This document shows positions 24,527 through 34,661 of a DNA stretch of 64,000 nt, in pieces. The position numbers and the translations under genes are program-made. The notes below the pieces were generated by a model, which saw only the letters and a list, made by a program, of their open reading frames with translations, was not told where the DNA came from and did no database searches. Positions within the stretch are counted from its first letter, which is position 1; every line of letters begins with the position of its first letter. Origin of the DNA: Fervidobacterium sp. (lineage in GTDB: Bacteria; Thermotogota; Thermotogae; Thermotogales; Fervidobacteriaceae); NCBI GenBank assembly GCA_026419195.1, contig JANZZV010000009.1, positions 1 to 64,000 on the forward strand, written 5' to 3'.

Positions 24527-24627
24527 CGAATAATCGATGATGAACTTTGATATTAATGCCTCTAGCAAGGTGAACACTTTTTAGCTGGAACTTGAAAATA
24601 TACGTAGAAGTAGAAAGGGGCATACGT

Positions 24628-25731
24628 ATGGCTATATCACCAATTGAACTAAGGCATGAACTCCACATGAATCCAGAACTTGCATTTAATGAATACACAA
24701 CTCAAAGCATACTTAAACGAGCACTTGAAGATCTTAAGCTCCAACCACAAGTAATAGCGAAAACAGGACTCATTGTGCTTGTAGAAAATGACAAATCCAA
24801 ACCTTCGATACTTTATCGCGCTGATATGGATGCATTACCTATCAAAGAGGAAACGAATTGGGATTTTAGCTCACAAAACCAATACATGCATGCGTGTGGT
24901 CACGATGTTCACATGGCAGTAATGTACGGAGTCATAAAGGAAGTGTTGGAAAAAAATATAAAAGGGAATTTCGTTTTTATTTTTCAACCGGCAGAAGAAA
25001 CCATAGGTGGTGCTAAACATATACTCGATGAAATGAGAGAAAAGTACAAAATAAAATATGCTACGGCACTGCATGTTAGCGATGAGTACAGTTTAGGAGA
25101 ATTCGCAACAACCTTTGGTACTTTGTTTGCCTGTGCAATGGAAATTACAGCTAAATTTAAAGGTTTATCCGCACACATTGCACAAAAAGCGAAAGGAGTT
25201 GATGCACTTTATAATTGTGTAAAGTTTTTAAATGAATTTTATGAAGCACATATTGATAATGATGAAATTGGAAAACGAGTTCTTGTTGGTTTTGGTAAGA
25301 TGTTTGCAGGAAATGTTAGAAATGCAGTAGCAGATTATTCAGAGGTGCAAGGATCAATAAGGGGTGAAAAACTCGAAATCGTTTTCGAAACGTTTGAAAA
25401 AATTAATAAAATAGCTAGAAAATACAATGGCTTTTTGGAACGAGGTAGTCTTTATCCACCTGTATCAAACAATGGTGAACTTGTTAAGTTGTTTGAATCG
25501 GTTGTTGTTTCAAACAATTACAAATTCATAGATTGCGGTATGAAGTACACAGGTGAGGATTTTGGATTTTTCAGCATGAAATTTCCTTCTTTAATGTTCT
25601 GGGCTGGGGTAAGGACTTCAGATAAGATGTATGGATTGCACAATCCTAAGTTTTTACCAGATGATGAAGTTATCCCTTTCTTAATTGAATTTATGATAAA
25701 ATGGTTGAGAACGCTGTCACAGGGGGTATGA
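24628..25731 (+). CDS. M20 family amidohydrolase (N-acyl-amino acid deacylase; candidate N-acetyldiaminopimelate deacetylase)
   Basis: This is a di-metal peptidase-family M20D enzyme. Metal and catalytic motifs include RADMDALPI, HACGHDVHM and QPAEETIGGAKH. It removes an acyl group from an N-acyl amino acid. Because the lysine operon in this window uses an acetylated pathway (DapH), it could be the N-acetyl-LL-diaminopimelate deacetylase, which belongs to the same family; hippurate or indole-acetyl conjugate hydrolases are alternatives. ATG 24628 is chosen because GAAAGGGG lies 7 bases upstream; the earlier in-frame TTG at 24592 has no such site. It is about 367 residues, normal for the family. 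Confidence 0.85.
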   Translation: MAISPIELRHELHMNPELAFNEYTTQSILKRALEDLKLQPQVIAKTGLIVLVENDKSKPSILYRADMDALPIKEETNWDFSSQNQYMHACGHDVHMAVMYGVIKEVLEKNIKGNFVFIFQPAEETIGGAKHILDEMREKYKIKYATALHVSDEYSLGEFATTFGTLFACAMEITAKFKGLSAHIAQKAKGVDALYNCVKFLNEFYEAHIDNDEIGKRVLVGFGKMFAGNVRNAVADYSEVQGSIRGEKLEIVFETFEKINKIARKYNGFLERGSLYPPVSNNGELVKLFESVVVSNNYKFIDCGMKYTGEDFGFFSMKFPSLMFWAGVRTSDKMYGLHNPKFLPDDEVIPFLIEFMIKWLRTLSQGV

Positions 25732-27166: not shown

Positions 27167-27907
27167 CTGAAGCTAACTATAGGAAAGTACATTCCAAAAG
27201 ATTCTTTAATACATGAACTTGACCCGAGGGGGAAGTTGTTTGCTATCATAATGCAGATAACGCTTGTAATGTTTTCACAAAAAATTGTTGACTATCTCAT
27301 TCCTTTGATTCTTTTAATAACTTTGGTGTGGTTATCCAAAATTAAAACAATCTTGTATTTAAGAAGTTTGAGAAGTATGTGGTTTTTGATAATTTTTGCT
27401 GCAGTCATTCAATATTTTGAAGGAGGGGTTTATTCGGCAGCTTACATAGTATTCAGGTTATCTTTAATATTTCTCTTTGCTTCGATACTCACATACACAA
27501 CCCCCCCACTTTTAATGGCAAGGGGAATAGTTGACATATTAAGATTTTTTGGTGTTAAGGAAAGTTCACGTGAAGATTTTGGAATGATGCTTTCTATATC
27601 TATAAGATTTATCCCTGTACTACTCGACGAGACTGATAGGATAATTAAAGCTCAAGTTTCAAGAGGTGCGAAATATTCAGAAAAAGGGCTGAGAAACAAA
27701 CTCTCAGCCTTGACAAGTATTGTAATCCCCTTGCTCGTTTCATCTTTAAGAAAAGCCGAAGAGCTCTCCCTTGCACTTCAAGCTAGAAAATACGGAATTA
27801 CTAAAAGAACACATTATTATTCACTGAAGTGGACTCGAAAAGATTCTCTGTACTTACTTGTCAATTTTATTTTTTTGCTCTTAGGCTTATTTCGTAGAGT
27901 TTTTTAA
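27167..27907 (+). CDS. ecfT: ECF transporter transmembrane protein EcfT (probable CTG start)
   Basis: EcfT is the scaffold membrane subunit of energy-coupling factor vitamin transporters. The N terminus KLTIGKYIPKDSLIHELDPRGK matches the usual EcfT opening only if translation begins at CTG 27167. GAGGTGAT lies at 27154-27161, a good distance. The frame has a stop just upstream (27158-27160) and no ATG, GTG or TTG until TTG 27236, which would remove this conserved part. Five or so hydrophobic helices and the coupling segments ISRGAKYS-like (here QVSRGAKYSEKG) and LQARKYG follow. No EcfA or S-component lies nearby. Its 3' end overlaps the convergent aminotransferase gene by 21 bases. Confidence 0.88.
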   Translation: MKLTIGKYIPKDSLIHELDPRGKLFAIIMQITLVMFSQKIVDYLIPLILLITLVWLSKIKTILYLRSLRSMWFLIIFAAVIQYFEGGVYSAAYIVFRLSLIFLFASILTYTTPPLLMARGIVDILRFFGVKESSREDFGMMLSISIRFIPVLLDETDRIIKAQVSRGAKYSEKGLRNKLSALTSIVIPLLVSSLRKAEELSLALQARKYGITKRTHYYSLKWTRKDSLYLLVNFIFLLLGLFRRVF

Positions 27908-29026
27908 AAGGACAGTATCAAACCTATTTCTTATTTCTCTCAGTTCATCTAATGTGACATTTAAAGGTAATAAGAATCTGATCACACCGTTTCCGAGAAT
28001 ATTGACAAGCAATCCTTCCTTTATGAAATCGTTTATTTGTAGGTCGAAACTGTTTTTTAACACAATTCCTCTCATTAATCCTAACCCTTTTATAGTTTCA
28101 ACATACGGAGCGTCATAAAACCTGTTTTCAAATTCTATACTCATCTTCTCGACATATTGCAAAACTTCTTCGGTAATCATTTCAAGGACAGCCTTACCAG
28201 CAGCTAAAGCTACAGGATTTGGGGCAAATGTTGAACCGTGCTCACCTTTTTCAAACGCATCAGAATATTCATTTAACATAAGACATGCACCAAGAGGTAA
28301 TCCGCCTCCTATACCTTTTGCTACTGTTACTAAGTCTGGCGATATATCAAAATATTGATATGCATAAAATTTTCCGGTTCTTCCAAGACCACTTTGTACT
28401 TCATCTGCTACTATCAAGAAGTTCTTTTTTGCCTTGTAACTCTGAATGATTTCAACAATTTCTGTTGGAATTAAATCCAAACCACCACTACCGTGCACTA
28501 CTTCGACAAAAACTGCTGCTATCTTACTTTCTTGCTTAAAAAATTCGTAGACTACATCCACGTTGTAGGGAAGGAAAACTACATCTTGATCTTCCACAAA
28601 TTGTTTTCTTATATTTTCAAATCCGGTTATACTTAAAGCTTTGAGTGTTCTACCGTGAAAATTCTTGATAAACGATACTATTTTACCCTGCTTTCTGTAC
28701 TTTCTAATTACTTTTAAAGCACACTCTGTACTCTCTGCGCCGGAGTTTGTGAAAAAGACCTTTCCTTCATTTTTAGTTTCTTTGACTAACCTTTCGGCAA
28801 TTATTTCAGCATCTTCGTCAAGAAAAAAGTTGGAGATATGAGTATAGCGCTGAAGTTTTTCTCTCATAGCACTTATAATTCTTTCGTGGTTGTGTCCAAA
28901 GAGCAATACACCAATTCCCATGAATGTATCAAAGTACTCTTTTCCTTCTGTATCCCAGACTTTTATACCTTTTGCATGGGAAATTTGGATTGGATACCTA
29001 TTATACGTGGATGCAATATAACTCAT
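27887..29026 (-). CDS. Class III aminotransferase (acetylornithine / N-acetyl-diaminopimelate aminotransferase type)
   Basis: This PLP enzyme resembles ArgD. It has TYNRYPIQISHAKG at the start, TNSGAESTECALKV, NFHGRTLKAL, ADEVQSGLGRTGKF and the PLP lysine in VTVAKGIGGGLPLG. As the last gene of a lysine operon of the acetylated type, it may be the N-acetyl-LL-diaminopimelate aminotransferase; an acetylornithine role is equally possible. The start at 29026 is preferred because GGTGAT precedes it and it matches Thermotoga ArgD; an ATG at 29089 would add 21 residues and overlap lysC. It ends 21 bases into the convergent ecfT. Confidence 0.85.
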   Translation of the reverse strand: MSYIASTYNRYPIQISHAKGIKVWDTEGKEYFDTFMGIGVLLFGHNHERIISAMREKLQRYTHISNFFLDEDAEIIAERLVKETKNEGKVFFTNSGAESTECALKVIRKYRKQGKIVSFIKNFHGRTLKALSITGFENIRKQFVEDQDVVFLPYNVDVVYEFFKQESKIAAVFVEVVHGSGGLDLIPTEIVEIIQSYKAKKNFLIVADEVQSGLGRTGKFYAYQYFDISPDLVTVAKGIGGGLPLGACLMLNEYSDAFEKGEHGSTFAPNPVALAAGKAVLEMITEEVLQYVEKMSIEFENRFYDAPYVETIKGLGLMRGIVLKNSFDLQINDFIKEGLLVNILGNGVIRFLLPLNVTLDELREIRNRFDTVLLKNSTK

Positions 29027-29067
29027 TCTATCACCGCTTTCTCCACTATCTACGTCCTTGACTTTAC

Positions 29068-30270
29068 TTACAACTCGAAAGTCTTGCATATCTTTTCGAC
29101 CAACTTTTCTGCATCTTCTTCAGGTACAAGAACAGATATTTTTATCTCAGATGTTGTTATAAGCTCGGGTTCGATATTTTCCCTTGAAAGTACATCCAAA
29201 AGCTTAGACGCAACACCGTAACTTGATCTCATACCGGTTCCTACGATAGTTATCTTTGCGAATTGTCCATAAAAATGATACTTTGCACCATAAATGGATA
29301 AAGTTTGGTCAAGTAATTCTTTTACTTTTTCTACTCTATCTGGTACAACGGTAAAAGAAATATGCGTTGAAAAACCGTTCTTTACAAGAGATATCATATC
29401 TACATTAATACCGCGTTCTGCTACTCTCTTAAATATATCTGCAACTACAGCTGCATCGTTAGGTAAGTCCATTATAGAGACCTTAATTTGATTTCTATCT
29501 AAACTTACGCCGGTAACAACCGGTTCTTCGAGCCATTCTGGTAATCTATCTACCACCCACGTTCCCTCCTCTTGTGTGAAAGATGAAGCACAATAAATTT
29601 TGATTTTGTATTTTTTGGCAATTTCGACAGACCTTGAGTGGAGAACTTTCGAACCTGTTGCAGCAAGCTCCAGCATATCATCGTAGGTTATGTACTTCCA
29701 TTTCTTTGCCGCTGGATAAAGCCTTGGGTCACAAGAATAAACGCCATCTACATCACTGTAAATCTCACACTCACATCTTAACTTTGCTGCAAGAGCTACC
29801 GCCGATGTATCAGATCCTCCTCGCCCAAGCGTTGTGAAATGCCCCTCTTGCGTTATCCCTTGGAAACCTGTTACAACGATAACATCATGATTTTTCAAAT
29901 GTTCCTTCAAATGTTGCACACTGATGTCCAAGATCTTCGCATTTGTGTGATGATGTGTTGTAAGTATTTTTGCTTGGAATGCGTTAAGTGAAATTGCATT
30001 AATTCCTATATCTTTCAGAGCGATAGCTACAAGAGCACAAGATACTTGCTCTCCTGTTACAAGTAACATATCAAGTTCCCGTTCATCTGGGTTCTTGGAT
30101 AGCGATTTTGCAAGTGAAATCAATTGATCTGTTGTCTTTCCCATAGCTGATATAACTGATACTACTTTATATCCTTCCTTTACTTTGGATGCAATTCTTG
30201 CTGCCACTTTTTTAATTCTGTCTACATCTGCAACGGATGAACCGCCGTATTTTTGGACTACCAGTCTCAA
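29068..30270 (-). CDS. lysC: Aspartate kinase
   Basis: The 400-residue enzyme phosphorylates aspartate, the first step toward lysine, threonine and methionine. The N-terminal VQKYGGSSVADVDRIKK motif, the FQGITQEGHFTTLGRGGSD substrate region and two C-terminal ACT domains (about residues 255-400) mark it. The ACT domains imply feedback inhibition, probably by lysine given the operon. It starts 16 bases after the dapH stop. Confidence 0.94.
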   Translation of the reverse strand: MRLVVQKYGGSSVADVDRIKKVAARIASKVKEGYKVVSVISAMGKTTDQLISLAKSLSKNPDERELDMLLVTGEQVSCALVAIALKDIGINAISLNAFQAKILTTHHHTNAKILDISVQHLKEHLKNHDVIVVTGFQGITQEGHFTTLGRGGSDTSAVALAAKLRCECEIYSDVDGVYSCDPRLYPAAKKWKYITYDDMLELAATGSKVLHSRSVEIAKKYKIKIYCASSFTQEEGTWVVDRLPEWLEEPVVTGVSLDRNQIKVSIMDLPNDAAVVADIFKRVAERGINVDMISLVKNGFSTHISFTVVPDRVEKVKELLDQTLSIYGAKYHFYGQFAKITIVGTGMRSSYGVASKLLDVLSRENIEPELITTSEIKISVLVPEEDAEKLVEKICKTFEL

Positions 30271-30286
30271 GGTTCATCACCTCAAA

Positions 30287-31027
30287 CTATTTTATTTTTC
30301 TTAACTCTTCAAGTATCTGTGTTTTACTCAAAGTTTTACCATCAACTTTTTTGACAAACTTAGCAGGTACACCGGCCACAACTGTGTACGGTGGTACATC
30401 ATCCACCACCACGGCACCAGCAGCTACAACCGAATGTTCGCCAACAGTAACTCCTTCGAGTATTACAGCATTCGCGCCTATCAAAACGTTATCTTCTATT
30501 GTTACTGGCTTTGCACTTGGTGGCTCCACAACACCTGCAATCACGCTTCCAGCTCCGATATGACAATATTTTCCAATCCTTGCTCGAGCACCAACAACAA
30601 CGTTCATATCAATCATTGTTCCTTCGCCAATTACACTACCAAGGTTTATCACCGCACCCATCATGATAACGGCATTATTTCCTATCTCTACGTACTCCCG
30701 TATAATTGCACCAGGTTCGATTCGTGCGTTGAATTTCGAAATGTCTGAAAGTGGTATGGCTGAGTTATGTGCTATAACCTCGATCTTAAATGACTTTACT
30801 CCAGGATGGTTCAAAATGTCCTTTATATATTCGTAATTTCCAAATAGTACTCCAAAATTATCAGAGCCGATGAACTCAAATTCACTGTTGACCCCATCTT
30901 TGTTTTCTATACCAATTTCTTTTAAGTTTCCGCATATGTAAGCTCTTACAATGGTCTTTTTCTCACTTTTTGCAATGAGCTCTATAATTTCGCCACTTGT
31001 TAACTCACTCGGTTTCTTATTTATCAT
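30287..31027 (-). CDS. dapH: Tetrahydrodipicolinate N-acetyltransferase
   Basis: This left-handed beta-helix acetyltransferase transfers acetyl from acetyl-CoA to tetrahydrodipicolinate, which defines the acetylated diaminopimelate route. The N-terminal SGEIIELIAKSEKKT region and the hexapeptide repeats through IREYVEIGNNAVIMMGAVIN, GEGTMIDMNVVVG and GVTVGEHSVVAAGAVV are characteristic. The start ATG 31027 is chosen because GGGAGG lies 8 bases upstream; the upstream frame to 31054 runs into dapB. It follows dapB by 4 bases. Confidence 0.93.
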   Translation of the reverse strand: MINKKPSELTSGEIIELIAKSEKKTIVRAYICGNLKEIGIENKDGVNSEFEFIGSDNFGVLFGNYEYIKDILNHPGVKSFKIEVIAHNSAIPLSDISKFNARIEPGAIIREYVEIGNNAVIMMGAVINLGSVIGEGTMIDMNVVVGARARIGKYCHIGAGSVIAGVVEPPSAKPVTIEDNVLIGANAVILEGVTVGEHSVVAAGAVVVDDVPPYTVVAGVPAKFVKKVDGKTLSKTQILEELRKIK

Positions 31028-31031
31028 GTTT

Positions 31032-31685
31032 CTAACCTCCCATCTGCTCAACAACGTCCGAGAACGAATAAAATCCGTTCTTCTTAGTCATGGAAAATAA
31101 CGCAGCCCTTCTTGCCCCTATGGAAAATGCTCGTCTTGAAAGCGCTCTGTGTGTTAACTCAATAACTTCGCCATCGTTTGCAATAATTACAGTATGTTCC
31201 CCAAACACACCCCCTACGCGTAATGAATTAATTTGTATCTCCTTACCAAGTGTGTTTTTCAACATGAGTGCTGTCCCAGATGGCGCATCTTTTTTCTTGT
31301 TGTGGTGTATTTCAACAATAGTCATATCCCAACTATTAAAATTTTGGTGAAATTTCTGTAAAATGAGTTTTAATAGATTGATTCCTTCTGAAAAATTATA
31401 ACTTTGCACAACTGGAACACTTTCTGCCAGGTGTCTTAGTTTATTGAAATCATCCTCAGTTAATGCCGTGGTACCTATTACAAGTGGACATGAGAATTTG
31501 GTGCACAAATCTATTGTCTTTTCAAGAGCACTTCTATGTGAAAAATCCACGATAACCTCTGGTTTTTCCATTACGTCTTCAACATCAACATCAACTTTTA
31601 ACACCAATTCATCACCCATTGAAAGGAAATAATCTGCTATTTCTTTTCCCATCTTTCCTTTTACACCTACGATGCCGAATTTCAT
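31032..31685 (-). CDS. dapB: 4-hydroxy-tetrahydrodipicolinate reductase
   Basis: This 217-residue NAD(P)H-dependent reductase is the short form found in Thermotoga. The N-terminal GIVGVKGKMGKEI is the nucleotide-binding loop. The VIGTTALTEDD segment and the catalytic region IVEIHHNKKKDAPSGTA are diagnostic. The ATG overlaps the dapA stop by 4 bases. Confidence 0.93.
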   Translation of the reverse strand: MKFGIVGVKGKMGKEIADYFLSMGDELVLKVDVDVEDVMEKPEVIVDFSHRSALEKTIDLCTKFSCPLVIGTTALTEDDFNKLRHLAESVPVVQSYNFSEGINLLKLILQKFHQNFNSWDMTIVEIHHNKKKDAPSGTALMLKNTLGKEIQINSLRVGGVFGEHTVIIANDGEVIELTHRALSRRAFSIGARRAALFSMTKKNGFYSFSDVVEQMGG

Positions 31686-32587
31686 TGTAAAACACCTACC
31701 TTTTCTAAGGTCTTTTTAACTAGCTCGAGCGTTGATTGCTTTGCAGATACAAGTGGTAATCTAAGTTCGTTGTCGATCATCTTCATCAAGTAAAGCGCAG
31801 CCTTTACTGGGATTGGATTTGTTTCTACAAAAAGCACTTTCATCACCTCAAGATACTTAAAGTGAATTTCCCTTGCTTTTTGCAAGTTGCCTTCCGTTAT
31901 TGCGTTTACAAGTTCAACCATTTGAGCAGGTATAACGTTTGAAGCTACGGAGATAACACCATTACATCCTGCACAAATCATGTGGAATGCTCTGTCATCG
32001 TTACCTGAATAAATGTAAAATTGTCCATTTGTTAACCTGTATATCTCATCTGCTTGGTTAACATCCGGATTAGCCTCTTTAATAGCGACAATGTTTTTAC
32101 AATCGCTTGCCAAGCGTGCAACTGTTTCAGGCGAGATATTTACACCCGTCCTGGAAGGTACATTGTATATAACGATGGGTTTACTTAGACGTTCGGAAAG
32201 GTATTTATAATGTGCATAAAGTCCATCTTGAGTGGGTTTGTTATAGTATGGTGTGACTATCAAAAGCGCATCGGCACCACTTTGCTCAGCATTTTTGGAT
32301 AATTCTAAGGTCTTATGTGTGTCGTTTGTTCCCGTACCAGCTATGACTTGCACATTGTTATCGCATAAATCTTTTGTTATCAATATAAGTCTTTCTCTTT
32401 CTTCGAGAGTAAGCGTTGCACCTTCCCCCGTTGTACCAGCCACAATTATTGCTTTTACACCAGACTCAACCTGCCATTTTACAAGCCGTTTGTAAGCCTC
32501 ATAATCTACTTCACCATTTGAAAACGGTGTAACAATAGCTGTTCCAACACCAGTAAACATTTTTGATATTTCTGATAACTTATTCAT
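31682..32587 (-). CDS. dapA: 4-hydroxy-tetrahydrodipicolinate synthase
   Basis: DapA condenses pyruvate with aspartate semialdehyde. The protein is a TIM barrel with GTAIVTPFSNGEVDYEAYK at the start, the GTTGEGATLT loop, the YNVPSRTGVN motif and the Schiff-base lysine in IVAIKEANPD. The start at 32587 is supported by AAGGAGGGG six bases upstream; this places the start inside the last codons of dapF. Length is 301 residues, normal for the family. Confidence 0.95.
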   Translation of the reverse strand: MNKLSEISKMFTGVGTAIVTPFSNGEVDYEAYKRLVKWQVESGVKAIIVAGTTGEGATLTLEERERLILITKDLCDNNVQVIAGTGTNDTHKTLELSKNAEQSGADALLIVTPYYNKPTQDGLYAHYKYLSERLSKPIVIYNVPSRTGVNISPETVARLASDCKNIVAIKEANPDVNQADEIYRLTNGQFYIYSGNDDRAFHMICAGCNGVISVASNVIPAQMVELVNAITEGNLQKAREIHFKYLEVMKVLFVETNPIPVKAALYLMKMIDNELRLPLVSAKQSTLELVKKTLEKVGVLQ

Positions 32588-33314
32588 GTAGAACCCCTCC
32601 TTCCAAAAATATATCTTTATCAGAAAAAAGTACGTTTAAAATTCCACCGCGTGCATGTATTTCTACCTTGTCCGGAACAGATGAGTCTTCAAGTATGAAA
32701 AACTTGTAATAATAAGCAGCGGCTGTGACTCCTGAACCGCAAGACAAAGTTTCTCTCTCAACTCCTCGTTCGTATGTTCTAATTTTTAAAACTTTCTCTC
32801 TTATTACTTCAAAGAAATTTACATTTGCATTGAATTTCCTTCTCATTTCCGGTCCAATTTTCTCAAGTTCAATAAAGTCAACATTTGGAGACTTGACAAG
32901 TATGTGGGGAACGCCAACTTCAACTAAAACCCCAATAAAACCGTTGTACTCAATCATATTTTTATAGACCGGAGAAGGCATTTGAACAGAAACAATGTGT
33001 AAACTATTTGATGCCTTGGCTTTCAGCATACCTGCGTTAGTTGAAAAAATTATGTCTCCATCGATGTTATAAAATTCCATAAGGTATGTTACGAATGTTC
33101 GAGCACCGTTACCACAGAAAGTTGCTCTTTTACCGTCTCTGTTAAAATAATCCATGTGGTACGTATTTCCAGTTTTCTCGACAAATATTACACCATCTCT
33201 ATCTTCAACACAATTTAACACCGTTGCTGATTTCTCTAAATCATTCAATTTTTCATTTATACAATCTACAACTATAAAAGTGTTACCTGTAGCGTTATAT
33301 TTCTCTAATTTCAT
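32580..33314 (-). CDS. dapF: Diaminopimelate epimerase
   Basis: DapF interconverts LL- and meso-diaminopimelate. Both catalytic cysteines are visible: one in RATFCGNGARTF and one in TLSCGSGVTAAAYYY. The ATGNTFIVVDC start is typical. At 244 residues it is somewhat shorter than the usual 270 or so, as in Thermotoga. It starts 6 bases after the asd stop and overlaps dapA by 8 bases. Confidence 0.93.
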   Translation of the reverse strand: MKLEKYNATGNTFIVVDCINEKLNDLEKSATVLNCVEDRDGVIFVEKTGNTYHMDYFNRDGKRATFCGNGARTFVTYLMEFYNIDGDIIFSTNAGMLKAKASNSLHIVSVQMPSPVYKNMIEYNGFIGVLVEVGVPHILVKSPNVDFIELEKIGPEMRRKFNANVNFFEVIREKVLKIRTYERGVERETLSCGSGVTAAAYYYKFFILEDSSVPDKVEIHARGGILNVLFSDKDIFLEGGVLHE

Positions 33315-33320
33315 TATGTA

Positions 33321-34310
33321 TCACTCACGTATTTGAATAGGTTCTTTGTTAAGTTCAAAGTGCTTTTCAAGAATCCTAAAAGCATTTGTTGCAGCACCAA
33401 CTCTAAGGTTATCAGCAACTACCCATATTCCAAATGTATGCGCATCAAAGAGCCGGATCCTACTCACATGCACATAATCATCTTTTTCGATCTCAATTGG
33501 TGTAACGATATCGTTATGCAACACTACATTTTCACCACTTGCTATTGTTTCAATCAAATCTTCCTTGGACATTATTGGAAAGATAGTTCTTGCAACAATA
33601 CTTTCGGAATGTCCAATTCTAACAGGAACTCGTACCGTTGTCGGGAATACATTAACAGAATTAGAATTAAGAATCTTTCTTGTTTCATTTATCATTTTCC
33701 ATTCTTCTTGGGTAATATCGTCCATCAAGTCCCCTATGAGCGGAATAACATTATGTGCAATGCGTCGCGCAAAGACCGTATGCTCTAACCCCCCACCCAG
33801 TTGATTTTCATACTCTCTTATTGCTTTGTAACCAGCACCGGAAACAGCTTGATAAGTTGAAACAAAGATCTCATGAATTTGATATCTGTCATGCACCCGG
33901 TATAAGGCAAGTACCATCTGTATTGTTGAACAATTTGGGTTAGCAACTATCCCACGGTAGTTTTTTAATAACCTTCCGTTAATTTCTGGAACAACTAATG
34001 GAATTTCAGGTACCATTCGAAAAGCCGAAGAATTATCTATAACAACGCTACCAGCGGCTGCTGCTATTGGTGCAAAACGTTTTGAGACCTCTGATCCTGC
34101 GGAAAAAAGCAAATAGTCAAAACCATCTTTCATATGCTCCTCACTTAAAATTTCGACTGGTATGTTTAGACCTCGAAATTTTAAAATTTGTCCAGCAGAG
34201 CGTTCTGAGGCAAAAAATCTCACTTCCGAAAAATCCAGCTTTGAACTTTCAAGAACCTCTATCATGTTCCTACCAACAGCTCCTGTAGCCCCTACAATAC
34301 CTACTCTCAT
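33321..34310 (-). CDS. asd: Aspartate-semialdehyde dehydrogenase
   Basis: Asd reduces aspartyl phosphate to aspartate semialdehyde. The GIVGATGAVGRNMIEVL start is the NADP-binding loop, and the catalytic Cys lies in ANPNCSTIQMVLAL. The segment TYQAVSGAGYKAI is also diagnostic. It is the first enzyme gene of the lysine operon and follows a leader with an intrinsic terminator (34402-34436), so its transcription is probably attenuated. The ATG is preceded by a GGGGGTGT-type site. Confidence 0.95.
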   Translation of the reverse strand: MRVGIVGATGAVGRNMIEVLESSKLDFSEVRFFASERSAGQILKFRGLNIPVEILSEEHMKDGFDYLLFSAGSEVSKRFAPIAAAAGSVVIDNSSAFRMVPEIPLVVPEINGRLLKNYRGIVANPNCSTIQMVLALYRVHDRYQIHEIFVSTYQAVSGAGYKAIREYENQLGGGLEHTVFARRIAHNVIPLIGDLMDDITQEEWKMINETRKILNSNSVNVFPTTVRVPVRIGHSESIVARTIFPIMSKEDLIETIASGENVVLHNDIVTPIEIEKDDYVHVSRIRLFDAHTFGIWVVADNLRVGAATNAFRILEKHFELNKEPIQIRE

Positions 34311-34401: not shown

Positions 34402-34436
34402 AAAAAAGCGGGCTACAGTGTTCAACTGTAGCCCGC
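34402..34436 (-). terminator. Intrinsic terminator in the lysine operon leader
   Basis: On the minus strand, GCGGGCTACAGT and ACTGTAGCCCGC form a 12-bp perfect stem with a 5-base loop, followed by six T. It lies between the leader ORF and asd, about 90 bases ahead of the asd start, so it must be bypassed for operon expression. Confidence 0.9.
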
Positions 34437-34452
34437 CTTTTGGTGACTAACC

Positions 34453-34510
34453 TGCGTTTATCCTATACTAAACGCAAGCTGACCACCTATCAGCGGGCAG
34501 CTGCGTTTAG
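34453..34510 (-). promoter_or_regulatory. Mutually exclusive hairpins in the lysine operon leader
   Basis: In transcription order the leader carries TAAACGCA (34509-34502), TGCGTTTA (34476-34469) and TAAACGCA again (34460-34453). The middle copy can pair with either neighbour but not both. A GCCCGC at 34498-34493 can also pair with the GCGGGC at the 5' arm of the terminator. This is the architecture of a ribosome- or ligand-controlled attenuator. Confidence 0.6.
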
Positions 34511-34577
34511 CTTTTTTATTCATATTTGAAAAAACACTGTTTACTGGTAAAATAAAACCGTTATAGTTTACTATCAT
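34458..34577 (-). CDS. Putative leader peptide of the lysine operon (39 aa)
   Basis: An ATG at 34577 follows CTGGAGGAAG and opens a 39-codon frame that ends at TAA 34458. Codons 20-25 read Asn-Lys-Lys-Ala-Lys-Arg, with three AAA codons just ahead of and inside the first hairpin arm. The stop codon lies in the third repeat arm. The peptide matches no family known to me. The position between promoter and terminator of the lysine operon suggests a leader whose translation senses charged tRNA-Lys. It could instead be a short functional peptide. Confidence 0.5.
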   Translation of the reverse strand: MIVNYNGFILPVNSVFSNMNKKAKRSCPLIGGQLAFSIG

Positions 34578-34630
34578 CTTTTAACTTCCTCCAGAACAAA
34601 AACTCTCAAGTATGGTAAATCTTTGCCCTA

Positions 34631-34661
34631 ATTATATCATACAAATGTTGTGTTTTGTCAA
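34631..34661 (-). promoter_or_regulatory. Promoter of the lysine operon leader
   Basis: On the minus strand TTGACA (34661-34656) and TATAAT (34636-34631) are 19 bases apart, and a TG two bases before the -10 makes it an extended -10 box. The -35 overlaps the stop codon of the upstream GGDEF gene. Confidence 0.75.

Follow-up and report, generated by a model that had tools for sequence, protein, structure and literature searches.

How is lysine synthesis controlled in a member of the Thermotogota whose lysine operon carries no lysine riboswitch? In a published survey of the lysine riboswitch (L-box), all Thermotogae covered carry this element ahead of the operon, and Fervidobacterium is unmentioned (PMC5584792). 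The question is raised by a stretch of 64,000 nucleotides from Fervidobacterium sp. (contig JANZZV010000009.1, positions 1 to 64,000; hereafter the window), in which a lysine/diaminopimelate operon is preceded by a leader whose promoter, ORF and terminator all lie, in this order, on the minus strand ahead of asd. A preliminary description had read this leader as a peptide-coupled attenuator. Here we report comparative sequence and folding analyses which make it highly probable that the operon is controlled by a ribosome-mediated (leader-peptide) transcription attenuator keyed to the supply of lysyl-tRNA.

The features of the locus are collected in Table 1. All parts named in the preliminary description, which gave no strand, are present on the minus strand: the promoter, the 39-codon ORF with its Shine-Dalgarno site and Lys-Lys-Ala-Lys run, and the 12-bp terminator with six T. 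The promoter has a long spacer of 19 nt and an extended -10 element, TGATATAAT; it is absent from the output of a consensus scan restricted to spacers of 16-18 nt, and TTGACA/TATAAT is seen again ahead of most orthologous leaders. The GGDEF gene upstream ends in a stop codon (TGA) that shares bases with the -35 box (window 34658-34661). The leader ORF translates as MIVNYNGFILPVNSVFSNMNKKAKRSCPLIGGQLAFSIG, and a 39-codon ORF would contain at least 3 Lys codons within a 4-codon window by chance with P about 0.034. The Lys run is by itself weakly improbable, and the weight is carried by its conservation and by the codon swaps found elsewhere. The terminator stem can be extended through A/T and G-T pairs, and the leader as a whole folds far more stably than shuffled sequence (z = -7.2). 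Convergent with the operon lies an amidohydrolase gene (window 24592-25731, plus strand), probably encoding N-acetyl-diaminopimelate deacetylase; in some relatives the gene for this enzyme lies inside the lysine operon (table in PMC5584792).

Table 1. Features of the asd leader and the lysine operon, in window coordinates
Feature	Position	Strand	Basis
-35 hexamer TTGACA	34656..34661	-	Sequence; recurs in orthologous leaders
-10 hexamer TATAAT, extended TGN at 34639-34637	34631..34636	-	Sequence; recurs in orthologs
Shine-Dalgarno GGAGG, ATG 10 nt downstream	34588..34592	-	Sequence; SD-like sites in orthologs
Leader peptide ORF, 39 codons, stop TAA at 34460-34458	34458..34577	-	ORF and its stop position shared by 10 genomes
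Control codons AAA AAA GCT AAA (Lys-Lys-Ala-Lys)	34506..34517	-	AAA GCT AAA invariant in 10 genomes
Hairpin H1, 5' arm 34511-34498, 3' arm 34481-34467	34467..34511	-	MFE fold, compensatory changes
Antiterminator	34431..34498	-	Refolding after masking of the 5' side; z about -5 against shuffled spacer
Antiterminator outer stem, GCCCGC / GCGGGC	34498-34493 / 34436-34431	-	
Antiterminator middle stem	around 34488-34484 / 34445-34442	-	
Antiterminator inner stem	34480-34469 / 34460-34450	-	
Intrinsic terminator stem-loop, 12 bp, loop TGAAC	34408..34436	-	Sequence and fold; compensatory changes at two pairs
Terminator T tract, six T	34402..34407	-	Sequence
asd, aspartate-semialdehyde dehydrogenase, first operon gene	33321..34310	-	Pfam PF01118, PF02774
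dapF, dapA, dapB, dapH (acetyltransferase), lysC, argD-like aminotransferase	27887..33314	-	Pfam and NCBIfam

Each of the seven genomes of the genus in which the region upstream of asd is readable (G000, G001, G003, G005-G008) has the leader ahead of asd, as do two genomes of a sister genus (G009, G013) and, in diverged form, G047, a member of another family; together these are 10 genomes, spanning 3 genera and 2 families. Loss of the Lys codons from orthologous leaders had been set beforehand as grounds for rejecting the attenuator, and they are kept in 10 of 10. The ORF frame, the Lys-Ala-Lys codons and the stop are likewise retained in every leader, while the N-terminal half of the peptide drifts; a non-conserved N-terminal half is usual for leader peptides. 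Two Lys codons only, those of AAA-GCT-AAA, are invariant across the orthologs, the third being present in nearly all of them (G001 has Thr-Lys-Ala-Lys). Sequence upstream of the leader promoter varies between genomes and the leader stays. In a tree of asd, G047 falls beside sequences of family f3, whose members carry L-boxes, and not with the genus, a placement that does not indicate joint inheritance of asd and its regulator.

The absence of an L-box, also noted in the preliminary description, was confirmed by covariance model searches of the window and of the whole genome. In the window no Rfam family reached its gathering score, the L-box (RF00168) and the T-box (RF00230) included; the L-box was not among matches to the leader up to E 10, nor was the T-box among its weak matches, and positive controls were matched. 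A match to the L20 leader (RF00558), at 22.7 bits against the 58.7 needed, was rejected as generic hairpin resemblance. No L-box was found in any genome of the two leader-bearing genera, the window genus and its sister. The preliminary description had proposed to follow the leader into Thermosipho-type genera of the same family; it is not shared with them, and an L-box occupies that place instead, about 70 nt ahead of asd in 9 of 9 genomes of the other three genera. Among 61 relatives the L-box occurs in 26 and a strong match to the leader model in 20, with no genome holding both, figures that come from related genomes and do not count independent events.

Two mutually exclusive folds are encoded in the leader. 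In the full-length fold, hairpin H1, formed by GCUAAACGCAGCUG paired with CAGCUUGCGUUUAGU, coexists with the terminator. Across the alignment 96.3% of H1 cells are paired, with compensatory changes in 4 pairs. Its 5' arm opens with the Ala and last Lys control codons; a ribosome stalled at the Lys codons, which lie at and just before this arm, would be correctly placed to release the antiterminator. Once this arm is masked, GCCCGC...AGGUG...GCUUGCGUUUA pairs with UAAACGCAGG...CACC...GCGGGC, an antiterminator which takes the terminator 5' arm and excludes both H1 and the terminator; the leader stop codon lies in or beside its apical loop. Neither H1 nor the antiterminator pairing was part of the preliminary description. 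The antiterminator is present in 10 of 10 orthologous leaders, although the spacer after the stop codon varies widely, and shuffled spacers seldom or never match its stability (z -3.4 to -6.5 over all ten). The terminator arm is captured with a pairing probability of 0.99-1.0 at both 37 and 65 C.

These folds do not switch with ribosome position at equilibrium. In the complete RNA the terminator is the more stable state at each of the three ribosome positions considered, that of a stalled ribosome included (about -44 versus -34 kcal/mol); just before the terminator 3' arm emerges, the antiterminator is the more stable state at each, even without a ribosome. Since neither state is selected by ribosome position, the switch must rest on timing, which also decides in classical attenuators. 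The leader stop lies beyond H1, unlike that of the E. coli trp leader.

A covariance model, R1, searched over 103 genomes of the phylum, matched related elements in family f2, which has no L-box. Ahead of dapA, leaders of this family encode ENKKAKRSHPL (G028), IIIIKKRNRPP (G030) and IIKKTKHNCPL (G024), and ahead of dapD/dapH, in nine genomes, sequences such as MKNAKKCNRPV and MKKDKKCNRPV; the Lys codons of both groups stand in the same place as those of the asd leader. In G030 a further leader, NSGTTTTSNCPP, precedes hom-thrC and contains four Thr codons (chance of a 4-Thr run, P about 2e-4); no Thr leader was found ahead of hom in G038 or in three L-box genomes inspected. In five genomes of the window genus a trpB-like gene is preceded by a Trp leader, WWW(W)TTGGCPPxCCC (L114, L139-L142, weaker matches; chance of 3 Trp, P about 5e-5); the R1-based search did not find this leader in the genome of the window itself, a genome that may be incomplete. 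In G064 a leader with NNNN precedes the asparagine synthetase A gene asnA (L098, a weaker match) and is a candidate asparagine-specific attenuator; the Thr and Asn cases come from one genome each. Nearly all related leaders fold into an antiterminator that captures a terminator arm, a comparison in which the terminator of the G024 ABC-transporter leader was misassigned. In the L-box genomes inspected, weak R1 matches (E about 1e-4 to 1e-3) proved to be ordinary terminators without a leader ORF and were rejected. In the dapA, dapD, hom-thrC, trpB-like and asnA leaders alike, the repeated codon fits the pathway of the gene that follows, a pattern that an RNA binding its ligand directly would not explain, and this codon-pathway match is the strongest evidence for the predicted ribosome stalling.

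The search also returned leaders of less certain specificity. Similar leaders precede genes for a binding protein of a basic-amino-acid-type ABC transporter (L130, L134 and L138 in G036, G024 and G022; L090 in G091), with the codons K-H-H-A-K, K-H-Y-N-R or R-H-H-S-R, and are possibly histidine or basic amino acid attenuators. Ahead of a citrate synthase-like gene in G089 and G087 (L091, L096), leader ORFs with NNQPEPKVWP are accompanied by hairpins and a terminator; Asn, Gln, Glu or Pro are candidates for the control amino acid.

The reading of the leader as a peptide attenuator, put forward in the preliminary description, is supported by the exclusive folds of every ortholog and by the operon-matching control codons of the related leaders. 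The structural marks of such an attenuator are found here: a short ORF with a start and ribosome-binding site, cognate control codons, an intrinsic terminator before the first gene and an antiterminator, exclusive with the terminator, which a ribosome at the control codons would free, this last being a matter of structure for which equilibrium folding leaves the kinetic outcome undecided. From the parts and their conservation, the two folds, the matching of codons to pathways and the absence of the L-box, all directly observed, we infer that the leader is translated, that ribosomes stall in it and that control runs in the following direction. RNA polymerase would start about 45 nt before the leader ORF, followed by a ribosome. 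With ample Lys-tRNA the ribosome would pass AAA-AAA-GCT-AAA and reach the stop codon in the antiterminator loop, where it would cover the inner stem, or else H1 would re-form after its release and lock the 5' side of the antiterminator; with the antiterminator blocked, the terminator ahead of asd would form. When Lys-tRNA is scarce, the ribosome would stall on the Lys codons and cover the H1 5' arm, and the freed GCCCGC...GCGTTTA segment would pair with the post-stop sequence and the terminator 5' arm, allowing transcription into asd.

Three other explanations were weighed. The near-invariance of H1 within the genus, beyond what pairing needs, together with the use of L-boxes for the same job in sister genera, might point to an undescribed riboswitch, with lysine or tRNA-Lys as a direct ligand of H1 or the antiterminator and with an ORF of no consequence. 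We regard this as very improbable: all ten species retain the ORF together with its start, Shine-Dalgarno site and stop position, even as the N-terminal codons diverge; G047 and the dapA and dapD leaders have an entirely different H1 but still their Lys codons; and Thr, Trp or Asn codons that fit other pathways are found on related scaffolds. Conservation of H1 is expected from the double duty of its bases, which take part in antiterminator pairing and also specify the control codons. The C-terminal part of the peptide, KAKRSCPLxGGQLAFG, is nearly invariant within the genus and might be read as a nascent arrest peptide responsive to a signal other than Lys-tRNA. Its codons coincide with the H1 and antiterminator arms, which accounts for that conservation, and wherever the pairing differs, in G047 and family f2, the peptide differs too (KHSRLVIFKGG, RNRPPVEWW, HNCPLFAVW, CNRPVICGG). 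An arrest peptide seems no likelier than a riboswitch.

Least probable of the three, by a little, is an ordinary terminator of the upstream GGDEF gene combined with a chance ORF and no regulation. That gene is on the same strand and ends right at the -35 box, as such an explanation would have it, but the promoter sits between the gene and the terminator, the antiterminator is conserved in ten species when set against shuffled controls, and the leader persists though the sequence upstream of its promoter differs between genomes. We retain the lysine attenuator as the preferred reading. A wider proposition, which we advance tentatively and hold to be slightly less probable than its opposite, is that the Thermotogota possess one RNA scaffold family of leader-peptide attenuators, whose control codons were re-aimed after duplication and which replaced the L-box in several lineages. 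In G030 the terminators of the dapA and hom leaders are almost identical, and this pair would be a case of Lys-to-Thr change.

A regulon survey lists leader families in Rfam for His, Leu, Thr and Trp only, mentions attenuators for Ile/Val and Phe as well, and proposes a possible origin of amino acid attenuators in gamma-proteobacteria, with few transfers (PMC3766115). In 2010, before Firmicutes were added, leader-peptide systems were known from Proteobacteria and Actinobacteria only (PMC2965389). Our literature search, which did not extend to the broad predictions of Lopatovskaya et al. 2010 and so allows for an earlier prediction in Thermotogae, returned no described Lys leader attenuator. 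The kind of attenuator is known; its amino acid, its phylum and the exchange with the L-box appear to be new. The leader would provide an attenuator of a lysine specificity not found described in that search, and it implies tight coupling of transcription and translation in a thermophilic phylum. Related genera that differ in whether this operon position is occupied by a riboswitch or by a leader peptide offer a ready-made system for studying sensor replacement.

Among known systems, the enterobacterial attenuators (thr, his, leu, trp, ilv, phe; RF00506, RF00514, RF00512, RF00513) are alike in their short ORF with product-cognate codons, their pause hairpin and their mutually exclusive antiterminator and terminator. 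The present leader differs from them in its control amino acid, Lys, in its sequence, which matches no Rfam family, in its thermophilic phylum and in an ORF that spans the whole first hairpin, with the stop in or beside the antiterminator loop. A T-box would likewise read tRNA charging, but none is matched in the window. The L-box of Thermotoga, Thermosipho and other relatives shares the operon and the place, whereas here an aptamer is lacking, in the leader as in the genome and genus, and the sensor would be the ribosome. Leader peptides outside Proteobacteria (ilvB in Corynebacterium; hisS and hisZ in Bacillales; PMC10272879, PMC2965389) follow the same principle and likewise show an exchange of sensors ahead of the same gene; here the amino acid and the phylum are different, and the exchange is against the L-box.
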